From assembly GCF_000740775.1 (NCBI RefSeq), contig NZ_JFGS01000002.1, forward strand, positions 1-64,000: a stretch of DNA of 64,000 nucleotides, read 5' to 3'. Shown piece by piece: positions 21,842-25,858 of the stretch. The DNA comes from Haematobacter missouriensis (GTDB lineage: Bacteria > Pseudomonadota > Alphaproteobacteria > Rhodobacterales > Rhodobacteraceae). The notes beneath the pieces are model-generated. The model searched no databases, had not been told where the DNA came from, and saw nothing but the letters and a program-made list of their open reading frames with translations. The position numbers were made by a program, and so were the translations under genes. Position 1 is the first letter of the stretch. Each line of letters opens with the position of its first letter.

Positions 21842-22354
21842 TCACTCTACCTCGTCTTCGTCCGGCAGCAGGGAGAGCGGGTCGAAATCCTCCGGCTGCT
21901 CGTCCAGCCAGTCGCGGAGTTTCGCCTCCTCCTCCGCCCAGGCATCGGGATGCCAGATCTGGAACGTGGCGCCGGAGGCCACGAAATAGACCTCTCCGCC
22001 GCCCGGCGCGAGGTTCAGCCGCTCCCGCACCACGGGGGGCAGCACCAGCCGCCCGTCATCGTCGACCTGCGTGGGAAATGACTGCCCCTGCATCAGACGT
22101 TCCAATGCGCGGCGCTGGGGGGAACCCGTCTTCATCCGGGCAATCAGCCGGTCGATCCGGTGCGCCTCACGGACGGTATAGCATTCGATGAATTTGCGGC
22201 GGTGATCGCCATAGACCAGCACGATGCCCGAACCGTCACCTGGCTTTCGGTCGGGGTCGCAGGCGTCGAGCACGCGGCGGAACAGCGCGGGGATCGAGAC
22301 CCGTCCCTTGCCGTCCACCTTGTTGAGGCTTTCGCCCCTGAACGTGTCCACCAC
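21842..22354 (-). CDS. mraZ: Transcriptional regulator / division-cluster protein MraZ
   Basis: First gene of the dcw cluster; MraZ is an AbrB-fold DNA-binding protein that represses its own operon. The 170-residue protein has two MraZ repeats: KVDGKGRVSIPALFRR near the N-terminus and VDDDGRLVLPPVVRERL around residue 97. The start is GTG 22354 (a second GTG follows directly at 22351); neither has a good ribosome site. The acidic C-terminal tail is longer than in E. coli (152 residues). The stop abuts the rsmH ATG. Confidence 0.95.
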   Translation of the reverse strand: MVDTFRGESLNKVDGKGRVSIPALFRRVLDACDPDRKPGDGSGIVLVYGDHRRKFIECYTVREAHRIDRLIARMKTGSPQRRALERLMQGQSFPTQVDDDGRLVLPPVVRERLNLAPGGGEVYFVASGATFQIWHPDAWAEEEAKLRDWLDEQPEDFDPLSLLPDEDEVE

Positions 22355-22958
22355 TGCCCCGCACTCGTCCCTTCCGGTCCGTTGATCGGACCTTGGTCGG
22401 CCCGGAGGATCGCCAAGTCGTCCTCCGGATGGACTACGGCGGACCGGGCCGCTGCCACTGCCCGATCCGCCGCCCTCGTCCCATCACTGGGTGCGTCCGG
22501 TATTTCTGCGGCACATCCTGGGGGGATGCTGCTCTGCCGCGCCGGATCTCTTTCATCTGATGAAGGGGGTGCCTGTATGAAACTGCCTTTTGCCGTGGGG
22601 TCTTCCGCCCCTTTAGCCCATCCCTCATCGGATGGATAAGGAATGCCATGGGAATTCACGGGAAGCAATGGGAAACTTAGGCACCAGCATGGGAGAAAGC
22701 GGCGCAAAATGCCTAGGTTTCGCCGAAAAATTCGCCACGAACGGAATATATTGTGCCGCCCCGGCGCAATTGCGCCAGAACTAGCATGGGGAGGAGTTTG
22801 GGGTGTCGGCCGCGATCCTCGCGGATCCGTGGGCTGTTTGTGAGGAGTGATGCCGCAAAGCATCGCCCGCTCACCATGTTCTGGCTCACTTCCAGACGAG
22901 GCTTGGCGCATCTCAAAACTGCGCTAGCCGCGAATCGTTCCAGTATTTTTCAGAGATT
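22355..22958. other. 600-base non-coding region upstream of mraZ
   Basis: No convincing gene is present on either strand. The region holds the periodic TGGGA array (22649-22694), a 14-base perfect palindrome GGCGCAATTGCGCC (22763-22776) next to an AT-rich AATATATT (22744-22751) that may be part of the mraZ promoter, and the 3' flank of mrp. The lower GC content and absence of codon structure fit a long leader/promoter region of the dcw operon. Confidence 0.6.
22649..22694 (+). promoter_or_regulatory. Candidate MraZ box array (10-bp-periodic TGGGA repeats)
   Basis: TGGGA at 22649-22653, CGGGA at 22659-22663 and TGGGA at 22669-22673 repeat with exactly ten-base period, i.e. five-base units with five-base spacers, and a further TGGGA starts at 22690. 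This is the known architecture of MraZ binding sites. The repeats are on the strand opposite to mraZ and 295 bases before its start codon, so either the leader is long or the boxes act from a distance. Confidence 0.6.
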
Positions 22959-24029
22959 TCAGGCCATTCCACCCGCGACGAGCCGTTCCGCCAAATGGGC
23001 ATAGGCCTGGGCCTCGGGCGAGTCGCCTGCGGCGATCGGTGTGCCCGAATCTCCCGCCACGCGCACATCGAGACTGAGAGGGAGTTCCCCCAGAAACGGC
23101 AGAGCCAGCCGCTCCGCCTCAGCCCGTACGCCCCCATGACCGAAGATATGAGATTCGTGGCCACAGTTGGGGCAGAAGAAGCTCGACATGTTCTCGATGA
23201 GACCCAGCACGGGCGTGTTCAGCTTGCGGAACATGTCGATGGCCTTGCGCGCATCCAGCAGCGCTACATCCTGTGGAGTGGAGACGACCAGCGCCCCGGT
23301 GATGTTGGCTTTCTGGCAGAGCGTAAGCTGAACATCCCCCGTTCCTGGCGGCAGGTCCACGATGAGGACATCAAGCTCACCCCAGGCCACCTGTCCCAGC
23401 ATCTGCTGCAGGGCACCCATCAGCATCGGCCCGCGCCAGACCACCGCCTCATCCTCTCTGAGCATGAAGCCGATGGACATGATGGTGACTCCGTGGGCCG
23501 TGAGCGGGATGATCGTCTGCCCATCGGGCGAGGCGGGGCGACGGTTGACCCCCATCATCCGTGGCTGAGAGGGCCCGTAGATATCCGCGTCCAGCAGGCC
23601 GACGCGCCGACCCTGGCGCGCCAGAGCGACGGCGAGATTGGAAGACACGGTGGACTTGCCCACTCCGCCCTTGCCAGAGGCGATCGCGAGAATACGGTCC
23701 ACTCCGCGTACCGGTTGCGGTCCGGCCTGCGGCGTGGGGTGCCGCCCGATCTTGGGCATTGGCGGGGCGGAGCCGGCGGCAGAGGCGGGCGCGGTGAGCA
23801 CCGCGGAAACCTTTTCCACCCCCTCGAGACCCCGCACCGCCGCCTCGGCCGCCTGCCGCGCGGGCTCCAGCCCCCGCGCCATTTCCGCATCGGCCGCCTC
23901 GATCACGAAACGGACCGTAGCTCCCTCCAGCGTCAGCGCTCGCACGAGATCGCGGCTCACCAGGGTGCCACCCCCCGGCACAGGAACGCCGGAGAGAGCA
24001 GCAAGAACGGATTCACGCGACAACGACAT
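22959..24029 (-). CDS. mrp: Mrp/ApbC-family iron-sulfur cluster carrier ATPase
   Basis: P-loop ATPase that carries and inserts Fe-S clusters into target proteins. The 356-residue protein has an N-terminal MIP18/DUF59-like domain (1-80), a Pro/Ala-rich linker, then the deviant Walker A GKGGVGKST (119-127), the DADIYGPSQPRM switch and the cluster-binding CPNC (Cys286, Cys289). The start MSLSRE at 24029 is chosen because GGAAAGGG is just upstream; the frame extends 102 bases further without conserved sequence. It is divergent from the DUF1127 gene. Confidence 0.94.
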   Translation of the reverse strand: MSLSRESVLAALSGVPVPGGGTLVSRDLVRALTLEGATVRFVIEAADAEMARGLEPARQAAEAAVRGLEGVEKVSAVLTAPASAAGSAPPMPKIGRHPTPQAGPQPVRGVDRILAIASGKGGVGKSTVSSNLAVALARQGRRVGLLDADIYGPSQPRMMGVNRRPASPDGQTIIPLTAHGVTIMSIGFMLREDEAVVWRGPMLMGALQQMLGQVAWGELDVLIVDLPPGTGDVQLTLCQKANITGALVVSTPQDVALLDARKAIDMFRKLNTPVLGLIENMSSFFCPNCGHESHIFGHGGVRAEAERLALPFLGELPLSLDVRVAGDSGTPIAAGDSPEAQAYAHLAERLVAGGMA

Positions 24030-24230
24030 CTTTTCCCTTTCCTGCAGCGCCGAGGTTGCGAAACCGCAACCCCCGTAACTGCGACATTTTCGCCACCCCT
24101 TCGGGGCAATTCGTGGCAGACTGAACACCATCCCGGATCAGAAGGCCAGTTTTACTGGGAAATTCGGCGCGAAAAATAGGTCAGCATGGGTTATGCATCT
24201 TCTGCATGGCCGGATTGCCGCTCCCCCCCA

Positions 24231-24258
24231 TTGTGCAGTCGCAGCATAAGCGTATGTT
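24231..24258 (+). promoter_or_regulatory. Candidate promoter of the DUF1127-small RNA unit
   Basis: TTGTGC (24231-24236), a 16-base spacer and TATGTT (24253-24258). In Rhodobacter sphaeroides the equivalent operon is driven by RpoHI/RpoHII; the hexamers here could serve either a heat-shock or housekeeping sigma factor. This is a consensus match only. Confidence 0.35.
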
Positions 24259-24324
24259 CATCCCCGAAGGCGCAGGACGAGAGAAAAAGCCCGCTGTGCC
24301 CGATCACAAGAGAATGGACTTACA

Positions 24325-24537
24325 ATGGCCTACCTGAACCATACCCATGGGGCGGCCCAGAATGCTTCGGGTCTGAGCGATTTCGTTGCCCGTGTCCGCG
24401 AAGCCTGGGCGCAGCGCCGCCTGTATCGGCAAACCGTTGCCGAACTGCGGGAACTGAGCGACCGTGAGCTTGCCGATCTGCAGCTCAGCCGCTCGTCGAT
24501 CTACTCCGTGGCCCGCGAAGCGGTTTACGGCAAGTAA
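24325..24537 (+). CDS. DUF1127 protein, CcaF1-like
   Basis: A 70-residue basic protein with the DUF1127 core in its C-terminal half (LRELSDRELADLQLSRSSIY), preceded by an Arg-rich segment. In Rhodobacter sphaeroides the homologous position upstream of the CcsR small RNAs is held by RSP_6037 (CcaF1), an RNA-associated DUF1127 protein encoded on the same transcript and induced under stress. The array of CCTCCTCCC hairpins begins seven bases after its stop codon, so one co-transcript that is processed into protein mRNA and small RNAs is very likely here too. Confidence 0.88.
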   Translation: MAYLNHTHGAAQNASGLSDFVARVREAWAQRRLYRQTVAELRELSDRELADLQLSRSSIYSVAREAVYGK

Positions 24538-24543
24538 AACGGA

Positions 24544-24578
24544 TTTCGATCGCTCCCTCCTCCCTTGGCGATCGGAAA
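24544..24578 (+). ncRNA. CcsR-like hairpin 1
   Basis: GATCGC (24548-24553) pairs with GCGATC (24568-24573); TTTC/GGAAA can extend the base with a bulge. CCTCCTCCC at 24556-24564. Confidence 0.82.
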
Positions 24579-24581
24579 GGT

Positions 24582-24610
24582 GACGGCACACTCCTCCTCC
24601 CAGTGCCGTC
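24582..24610 (+). ncRNA. CcsR-like hairpin 2
   Basis: Perfect 8-bp stem GACGGCAC/GTGCCGTC (24582-24589 with 24603-24610). CCTCCTCCC at 24593-24601. Confidence 0.88.
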
Positions 24611-24644
24611 GCCGGAATACGGGGCCTTCGGGTTCCAGACTTTG

Positions 24645-24674
24645 CGACAATCCCTCCTCCTCCCTGGATTGTCG
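24645..24674 (+). ncRNA. CcsR-like hairpin 3
   Basis: Perfect 9-bp stem CGACAATCC/GGATTGTCG (24645-24653 with 24666-24674). Loop CTCCTCCTCCCT, motif at 24656-24664. Confidence 0.9.
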
Positions 24675-24682
24675 TGAATAGG

Positions 24683-24712
24683 CAGCGGTCCTCCTCCCTC
24701 CCCGGGCCGCTG
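24683..24712 (+). ncRNA. CcsR-like hairpin 4
   Basis: Nine-bp stem CAGCGGTCC/GGGCCGCTG (24683-24691 with 24704-24712) with one G-U pair. The motif CCTCCTCCC (24690-24698) partly enters the stem, the only member where this happens. Confidence 0.8.
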
Positions 24713-24746
24713 TCACCTCCCTCCGGCGGAGCATGCCGGAACAGAT

Positions 24747-24782
24747 GCGCTGCGACCCCTCCTCCTCCCTGGGTCGTATCGC
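24747..24782 (+). ncRNA. CcsR-like hairpin 5
   Basis: Stem TGCGACCC/GGGTCGTA (24751-24758 with 24771-24778) with one G-U pair, extended by GCG/CGC beyond one mismatch. The loop is identical to that of hairpin 3; motif at 24761-24769. Confidence 0.86.
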
Positions 24783-24790
24783 AGGCGAGA

Positions 24791-24825
24791 GCGGCGGCTC
24801 CTTCCTCCTCCCCTGGAGCCGCCGC
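24791..24825 (+). ncRNA. CcsR-like hairpin 6
   Basis: Perfect 11-bp stem GCGGCGGCTCC/GGAGCCGCCGC (24791-24801 with 24815-24825). Motif at 24804-24812. Confidence 0.9.
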
Positions 24826-24860
24826 ATCCCCCTCCCGGTCGGGACAGACCGGACGGAATG

Positions 24861-24892
24861 CGATCGGCCTCTCCTCCTCCCTGGCTTGATCG
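24861..24892 (+). ncRNA. CcsR-like hairpin 7
   Basis: CGATC/GATCG (24861-24865 with 24888-24892), a small internal loop, then GCC/GGC. The weakest stem of the set. Motif at 24873-24881. Confidence 0.78.
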
Positions 24893-24899
24893 TCATACA

Positions 24900-24936
24900 G
24901 CGGCAGCCTCCTCTCCTCCTCCCCGGAGGCTGCCGC
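24900..24936 (+). ncRNA. CcsR-like hairpin 8
   Basis: Perfect 12-bp stem GCGGCAGCCTCC/GGAGGCTGCCGC (24900-24911 with 24925-24936), the strongest of the set and the last. Motif at 24915-24923. It could double as the transcript end although no T-tract follows. Confidence 0.9.
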
Positions 24937-25568
24937 GCCCCCTTACCCAGAAGCAGTTACATGCGCCCTGGCGCGGAGACTCCCGTCCCGACGCGCCTGC
25001 TCGGTAGGATAGCCCGCTTGCAGAGAGGCAGGCTTCCCCGGTGCTTCGCGCAGGGGACAGCAACGTTCCGCTGAACATCCTGAGCGGTCGTCTTTGCCTG
25101 CGCGCCAAGGGCTTTCATCTGTCTTTCATCCGGGACGGCAATCGGTCGCGTCCTTCGCCTCCGAACGTGGATGCGTAGGCCAGGCGGCCGGCCGCTGCCA
25201 GCGTTTGCAGAGGGGTTGAAGAGCAACATGAAGATCTCGAAAGCGGCGACCTCCGAGGCGGGGATCACATGACATGGCTTGTCACGGAGCTTGCTTTCAG
25301 CTCCCGGTTCCCCTGTGCCGTGGCAAGGGCCGATATCATTGAGGCAAGAGCGCACAGGGCGTGAAAAAGGCGCAGAGGAGTGCGTTCATCGAAGCCGGGA
25401 AACGGTGCACCGGACTGCGGCAGAAGCCGCCGCGAAGCATGCGCCGGGGCGTGGCGATGCTCGGCGACCGCAGGGCGCCACTCCTTGGAACCGTCAGGGA
25501 ACAGGATTCGAAAACCCGGACCGGAAACAGTCAGAATTGTGACGCTGCGTCGGCATCTTAGAGGAGAC
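24937..25568. other. Region without a recognisable gene between the small RNAs and tRNA-Arg
   Basis: Several open frames exist on both strands (for example a 132-codon minus frame 24957-25355 and a GTG-started plus frame 25361-25561), but none has a ribosome site, a recognisable domain or a natural composition: all are rich in Arg, Gly, Pro and Ala as expected for chance frames in GC-rich DNA. I see no terminator or further CCTCCTCCC loop. Confidence 0.55.
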
Positions 25569-25858
25569 TGGCGACCCCGGCAGGATTCGAACCTGCGACC
25601 AACCGCTTAGCCTACCACTTCGGCTTTCGCCGCAGGCCGGAGGCCCTTCGTGGTCTGGACTGTCCCTTCACCCTTCCGCGGTAGGCGGGGCGGGTGCCTG
25701 CCGTCCAGTCTCTACACCTTCCCCACAATGGGGCTTGGCTCGGGATTGCCACGCCGCAAGGCAGAGGTTTCCCCGAATTTGACAGGTTCTGCAGCGCCAG
25801 TTTCCCGGCGCGCACTCCAATTGAAGGCGGTTGCTCTATCCAGCTGAGCTACGGGGCC
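25569..25858 (-). tRNA. tRNA-Arg (UCU), interrupted by a group I intron
   Basis: Two exons on the minus strand: 25858-25824 (35 nt, acceptor 5' strand to anticodon base 34) and 25610-25569 (42 nt, anticodon base 35 to an encoded CCA). Joined they give a 77-nt tRNA with a 7-bp acceptor stem (GGCCCCG with CGGGGTC), an anticodon stem ACCGC/GCGGT, loop CTTCTAA and a normal T arm (CGCAG/CCTGC region with GTTCGAATC). The anticodon reads TCT, so it decodes AGA/AGG arginine codons. The intron separates anticodon bases 34 and 35, so no functional tRNA can form without splicing. Confidence 0.93.
25611..25823 (-). other. Self-splicing group I intron (IC3-like) in tRNA-Arg
   Basis: The 213-nt intron carries the group I core in order on the minus strand: GGGGAAACCTC then GGCAATCCCGAGCCAAGCC (P/Q region), GGAAGGTGTAGAGACTGGAC (R), GGTGAAGGGACAGTCC (S) and a P9-type hairpin GGCGAAAGCC. 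These match block by block the cyanobacterial tRNA-Leu intron. The 5' exon ends in U after CGCCU and can pair with an internal guide GAG-U-GCG (intron bases 7-13, one bulged U) placing that U opposite G, as P1 requires; the intron ends in G. There is no homing-endonuclease frame, so it is a minimal ribozyme. Confidence 0.92.

Follow-up and report, generated by a model that had tools for sequence, protein, structure and literature searches.

The eight-hairpin array that follows a DUF1127 gene in the analysed window (the whole stretch of 64,000 nucleotides from Haematobacter missouriensis) is very probably the Haematobacter ccaF1-CcsR1-4 locus, with four two-hairpin RNAs that, by analogy with Rhodobacter sphaeroides, would be stress-driven, processed by RNase E and active as anti-Shine-Dalgarno RNAs. 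It is a known kind of locus whose layout and loop number are typical for the family and not doubled, and our literature search found no published description of a CcsR locus in Haematobacter. The gene and its array, the exposure of the loops, the preservation of the stems, the family match of each hairpin pair and the synteny were all observed directly. Haematobacter thereby joins a widespread alphaproteobacterial family of stress RNAs, and the counting unit is corrected to two loops per CcsR RNA.

The motif CCTCCTCCC occurs in eight exact copies on the + strand between 24556 and 24923 (starts at 24556, 24593, 24656, 24690, 24761, 24804, 24873 and 24915), each lying in or at the loop of one hairpin. 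The outermost hairpin arms run from 24544 to 24936, exactly the extent that the first-pass annotation had assigned to its eight hairpins with an identical loop motif. The 64-kb window holds 11 copies of CCTCCTCCC in total, against a shuffle expectation of 1.30 (sd 1.08, maximum 4). As the start-to-start distances of the eight motifs are 37, 63, 34, 71, 43, 69 and 42, the motifs fall into four pairs, and each pair coincides with one full-length match to the Rfam model RF02791 (CcsR1):

24542 to 24617, + strand: CcsR unit 1, hairpins 24544-24577 and 24579-24613, motifs at 24556 and 24593; RF02791 1-83/83, 32.9 bits, E 2.3e-6

24638 to 24718, + strand: CcsR unit 2, hairpins 24642-24677 and 24681-24714, motifs at 24656 and 24690; RF02791 1-83/83, 37.9 bits, E 7.7e-8

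24744 to 24830, + strand: CcsR unit 3, hairpins 24746-24783 and 24791-24825, motifs at 24761 and 24804; RF02791 1-83/83, 41.9 bits, E 4.9e-9

24856 to 24941, + strand: CcsR unit 4, hairpins 24860-24893 and 24900-24936, motifs at 24873 and 24915; RF02791 1-83/83, 27.8 bits, E 7.5e-5

24724 to 24742, + strand: motif-free spacer hairpin (TCCGGCGGAGCATGCCGGA), from sequence and fold

About 24835 to 24852, + strand: motif-free spacer hairpin (CCGGTC-GGGACA-GACCGG), from sequence and fold

The last two are the interspersed hairpins lacking the motif that had been noticed at the outset, and both are present. Each of the four units, of ~80 nt, consists of two hairpins with CCUCCUCCC loops, hairpins 4 and 7 being less clear. 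In a fold of the entire 423-nt stretch, six of the eight motifs showed almost full loop exposure; the loop of hairpin 4 (24681-24714) is reduced to UCCUCCCUCCCC because the two leading C of the motif are paired, and hairpin 7 (24860-24893) has a competing rival fold, with an unpaired probability of 0.45-0.81.

The two arms of each hairpin pair with one another over 9-13 bp (mean 11.25 bp; at least 10 bp in 7/8 hairpins), whereas arms swapped between hairpins pair over a mean of 5.5 bp (3.6% reach 10) and a shuffled-flank control over 5.1 bp (2.3% reach 10). Because own arms pair and swapped arms do not, the stems differ among copies yet match within each. The same comparison in 350 hairpins of relatives gave 10.2 bp for own arms versus 6.4 bp for swapped ones, and across three Haematobacter species the stems are 99.6% paired, versus 32-53% when slid by 1-3 columns. 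The 90 stem pairs of these species contain one two-sided and ten one-sided changes, and no covariation above the shuffle control was found (166/500) among the three, which show little variation. The proposal of copy-specific stems with complementary arms is thus upheld; the changes among the three species agree with preserved stems but are too few to prove the structure by themselves.

RF02791, the family of 'conserved CCUCCUCCC motif stress-induced RNA 1', carries the motif in both loops of its consensus. Matches were called by E-value threshold and not by gathering score. The covariance search that the first-pass annotation had recommended returned E-values of 5e-9 to 8e-5 (1e-8 to 2e-4 in the genome-wide search) for four full-length units, whose 27.8-41.9 bits all lie below the gathering score of 65.3. 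Among the Cereibacter sphaeroides units, only unit 1 passes gathering (106 bits), the six others scoring 39-47 bits. Compared with that unit, the Haematobacter stems have largely diverged (28-42 bits versus 106). A match to alpha-r14 (RF02344) above gathering was not found in the array (32-47 bits versus 58.8), and in the sub-gathering matches the third hairpin of the model is absent, motif-free or cut off; the array does not fit a single alpha-r14 RNA of three motif hairpins. The Rhizobiales cuckoo RNAs of that family (alpha-r14/NfeR1, SmelA075 and SmelA099) resemble the array in their identical loop motif on hypervariable stems and in their redundant anti-Shine-Dalgarno loops (PMC10746234 and PMC3927594), but each is a single stand-alone RNA with three or four hairpins, and NfeR1 has its own RpoD promoter.

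The gene neighbourhood links the array to the R. sphaeroides locus, where ccaF1 encodes a CcsR-associated RNA-binding protein. Upstream of the DUF1127 gene, and divergent from it, lie a Mrp-type ATPase gene and then mraZ/rsmH of the cell-division cluster:

24325 to 24537, + strand: DUF1127 gene, 70 aa, ccaF1-like; Pfam PF06568, 41.5 bits, cut-off 23.3

22962 to 24131, - strand: divergent gene for a Mrp/NUBPL-type P-loop ATPase; PF10609, E 1.5e-100; about 75% identity to the C. sphaeroides counterpart at the same place

21842 to 22354, - strand: mraZ, first gene of the dcw cluster; PF02381; order kept in loci L169 and L170

The order mraZ - mrp - ccaF1 - array is common to the window and the C. 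sphaeroides assembly (L169), and the window DUF1127 protein shares 52% identity (73 aligned positions) with the 71-aa protein encoded at the corresponding C. sphaeroides place. Haematobacter thus shares with CcsR1-4/ccaF1 of R. sphaeroides the position beside mrp and mraZ, the DUF1127 gene directly upstream, the tandem two-hairpin units and CCUCCUCCC in both loops. The initial reading of the array as a CcsR/cuckoo locus, linked to DUF1127 and exposing loops of anti-Shine-Dalgarno type, is borne out by a PF06568 score above the cut-off together with the four RF02791 matches. The mraZ 5' region of the window (22355-22958, - strand) is separated from the CcsR locus by about 2 kb; UpsM, an abundant sRNA of R. 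sphaeroides, arises from the mraZ 5' region, and a UpsM homologue may be encoded there. We identified the genome carrying L169 (G069:C4:688000-695500) as Cereibacter (Rhodobacter) sphaeroides on two grounds: a 105,284-base contig whose first 4 kb match plasmids of C. sphaeroides 2.4.1 at 99.9% whole-length, and a DUF1127 protein of 71 aa, the length stated for CcaF1 in PMC10253847.

Tandem motif pairs were found in 107/149 sampled Rhodobacteraceae genomes, and the arrays held 2-15 loops with a mode of eight (11/53 arrays; the 53 exclude sister Haematobacter, duplicates and dispersed repeat copies, include a few without a recognised DUF1127 gene, and lean to genomes standing first in the 149-genome listing). 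In most sampled arrays, the DUF1127 gene stands about 15-95 nt upstream. L169 itself contains 14 loops in seven two-hairpin CcsR units, five of which are nearly identical and recur about every 114 bases, whereas the papers name four units (CcsR1-4), the number found in Haematobacter; this is a difference of strain, assembly or counting. RS0680a is described with two stem loops and the motif in each (PMC3927594). With two motif loops per CcsR RNA, CcsR1-4 therefore amount to eight loops, equal to the Haematobacter number. The first-pass annotation had credited R. sphaeroides with half as many copies and had called the Haematobacter dose doubled and unusual, which came from comparing loops with RNAs: R. 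sphaeroides has eight loops (14 in the examined assembly), eight is the commonest array size sampled, and the count at homologous loci does not point to a doubling. Its 'eight processed species' should likewise read four two-hairpin species, given one RF02791 match per hairpin pair. Two further arrays (L006 and L007), of 14 and 15 motif hairpins, keep a regular ~40-base spacing with no paired layout and match the three-hairpin ar14 model better than CcsR1.

We propose that the gene for the DUF1127 RNA-binding protein and the four two-hairpin small RNAs form one transcription unit, in which a stress promoter of RpoH type would drive a joint ccaF1-CcsR transcript and RNase E, aided by the CcaF1-like protein, would cleave the spacers to give four ~80-nt RNAs. 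Their exposed CCUCCUCCC loops, which hold the CCUCC core of the 16S anti-Shine-Dalgarno, would pair with GGAGG-type ribosome-binding sites; the four small RNAs probably block such sites on many mRNAs under stress, and translation of these mRNAs would be lowered. For transcription, promoter type, processing, targets and mode of action, R. sphaeroides serves as the model. There, ccaF1 and CcsR1-4 are described as co-transcribed from an RpoHI/RpoHII promoter and cut by RNase E, with CcaF1 taking part in maturation, and as induced by oxidative stress (PMC10253847 and PMC8625941), and flhR mRNA is given as a target of CcsR1-4 (PMC8307010). For NfeR1 of S. meliloti, the same motif is reported to silence mRNAs at their ribosome-binding sites through redundant loops (PMC10746234). 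The Haematobacter genome contains 53 GGGAGGAG-N4-10-ATG sites versus 8 for the reversed pattern, so a multi-target mode is possible, though ordinary ribosome-binding sites would also give such a count. GGAGG is absent ahead of the DUF1127 gene start, and we infer that this gene may escape silencing by the RNAs of its own locus.

Simple pattern scans recognised no sigma-70-type or RpoH-like promoter pattern, and an RpoH-like scan across relatives gave nothing consistent; TTGTGC-N14-17-CGTATG, about 90-70 nt before the DUF1127 gene, is conserved in the genus and stands as a candidate promoter only. A terminator of stem and T-run was not found in 24050-25600, and the last hairpin is strong and without a U tract, unlike in R. 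sphaeroides, where the CcsR locus is reported to end in a Rho-independent terminator (PMC10253847). A Rho-independent terminator is not a defining trait of the CcsR family. Across the sampled arrays, the final motif hairpin tends to rank with the strongest of its array and seems to double as a terminator in relatives, a T-run following it in many genera; in Haematobacter this T-run is missing.

A different mode of action, in which the C-rich loops chiefly titrate a CcaF1-like protein, Hfq or a C-rich-binding protein and pairing is secondary, is unlikely. Identical loops on unrelated stems, in variable number (2-15), are the design expected of a titrating RNA. CsrB and RsmZ are sponge RNAs of this kind, with many identical loops on different stems as in the Haematobacter array, but theirs are GGA loops that bind CsrA; we are aware of no case of CcsR sequestering a protein. 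CcaF1 binding to CcsR1 in vitro (cited in PMC10371769) and an interaction of CcsR RNAs with Hfq (PMC8307010) also fit titration. The loop is, however, an anti-Shine-Dalgarno sequence; in S. meliloti, mRNAs are silenced by base-pairing with redundant loops that carry this sequence (PMC10746234), and an mRNA target is known for CcsR1-4 of R. sphaeroides (PMC8307010). It is also improbable that arrays grow and shrink by tandem unit duplication so that loop number is itself the regulated quantity, a tunable sponge for a protein or a pool of GGAGG RNAs instead of four separate antisense RNAs. The survey does show 2-15 loops across genera and near-identical tandem units in C. sphaeroides, and such variability makes the arrays suitable for studying why a bacterium maintains so many copies of a single anti-Shine-Dalgarno loop.

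There is very little chance that the hairpins are a cis element only, stabilising or terminating the 3' UTR of the DUF1127 mRNA with no independent RNA. The first motif lies 18 nt past the DUF1127 stop codon, and T-runs after the last hairpin in many relatives would suit such a role; yet stand-alone two-hairpin units without DUF1127 exist elsewhere in the Haematobacter genome, the exact loop sequence is retained while the stems drift, and mature CcsR RNAs have been detected in R. sphaeroides (PMC8625941). That the array is no more than a repetitive coding sequence, or low-complexity DNA with incidental folding, is scarcely credible: long open frames do run through it, including one of 123 aa on the minus strand, but coding sequence is rejected by 1- and 2-base indels between sister species and by stops that H. 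massiliensis has in both of the minus-strand frames left open in the window, and own-arm pairing far exceeds that of shuffled flanks.

Beyond the array of CcsR units, two stand-alone two-hairpin units are present in the genome at G000:C23:28534-28615 (+) and C40:4255-4336 (-) (loci L133, L134, L156 and L159). They are 99% identical across 82 bases with largely unrelated flanks, and a DUF1127 gene was not recognised beside either. Haematobacter genomosp. 1 has three near-identical stand-alone copies and H. massiliensis two, each species having an additional, more diverged one, and at least two upstream types are shared; these units resemble cuckoo RNAs that are dispersed and possibly mobile. 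As candidates for further arrays, the motif pairs at C4:128218 and C2:95933 were discarded, since sequence inspection showed them not to be hairpin arrays. Downstream in the window, a group I intron of 213 bases (25611-25823, - strand; RF00028, 50.2 bits) lies inside a tRNA-Arg(UCU) gene at about 25572-25858; the unspliced gene was missed by ARAGORN, which gives a complete tRNA-Arg(tct) of 77 bases once the intron is removed.
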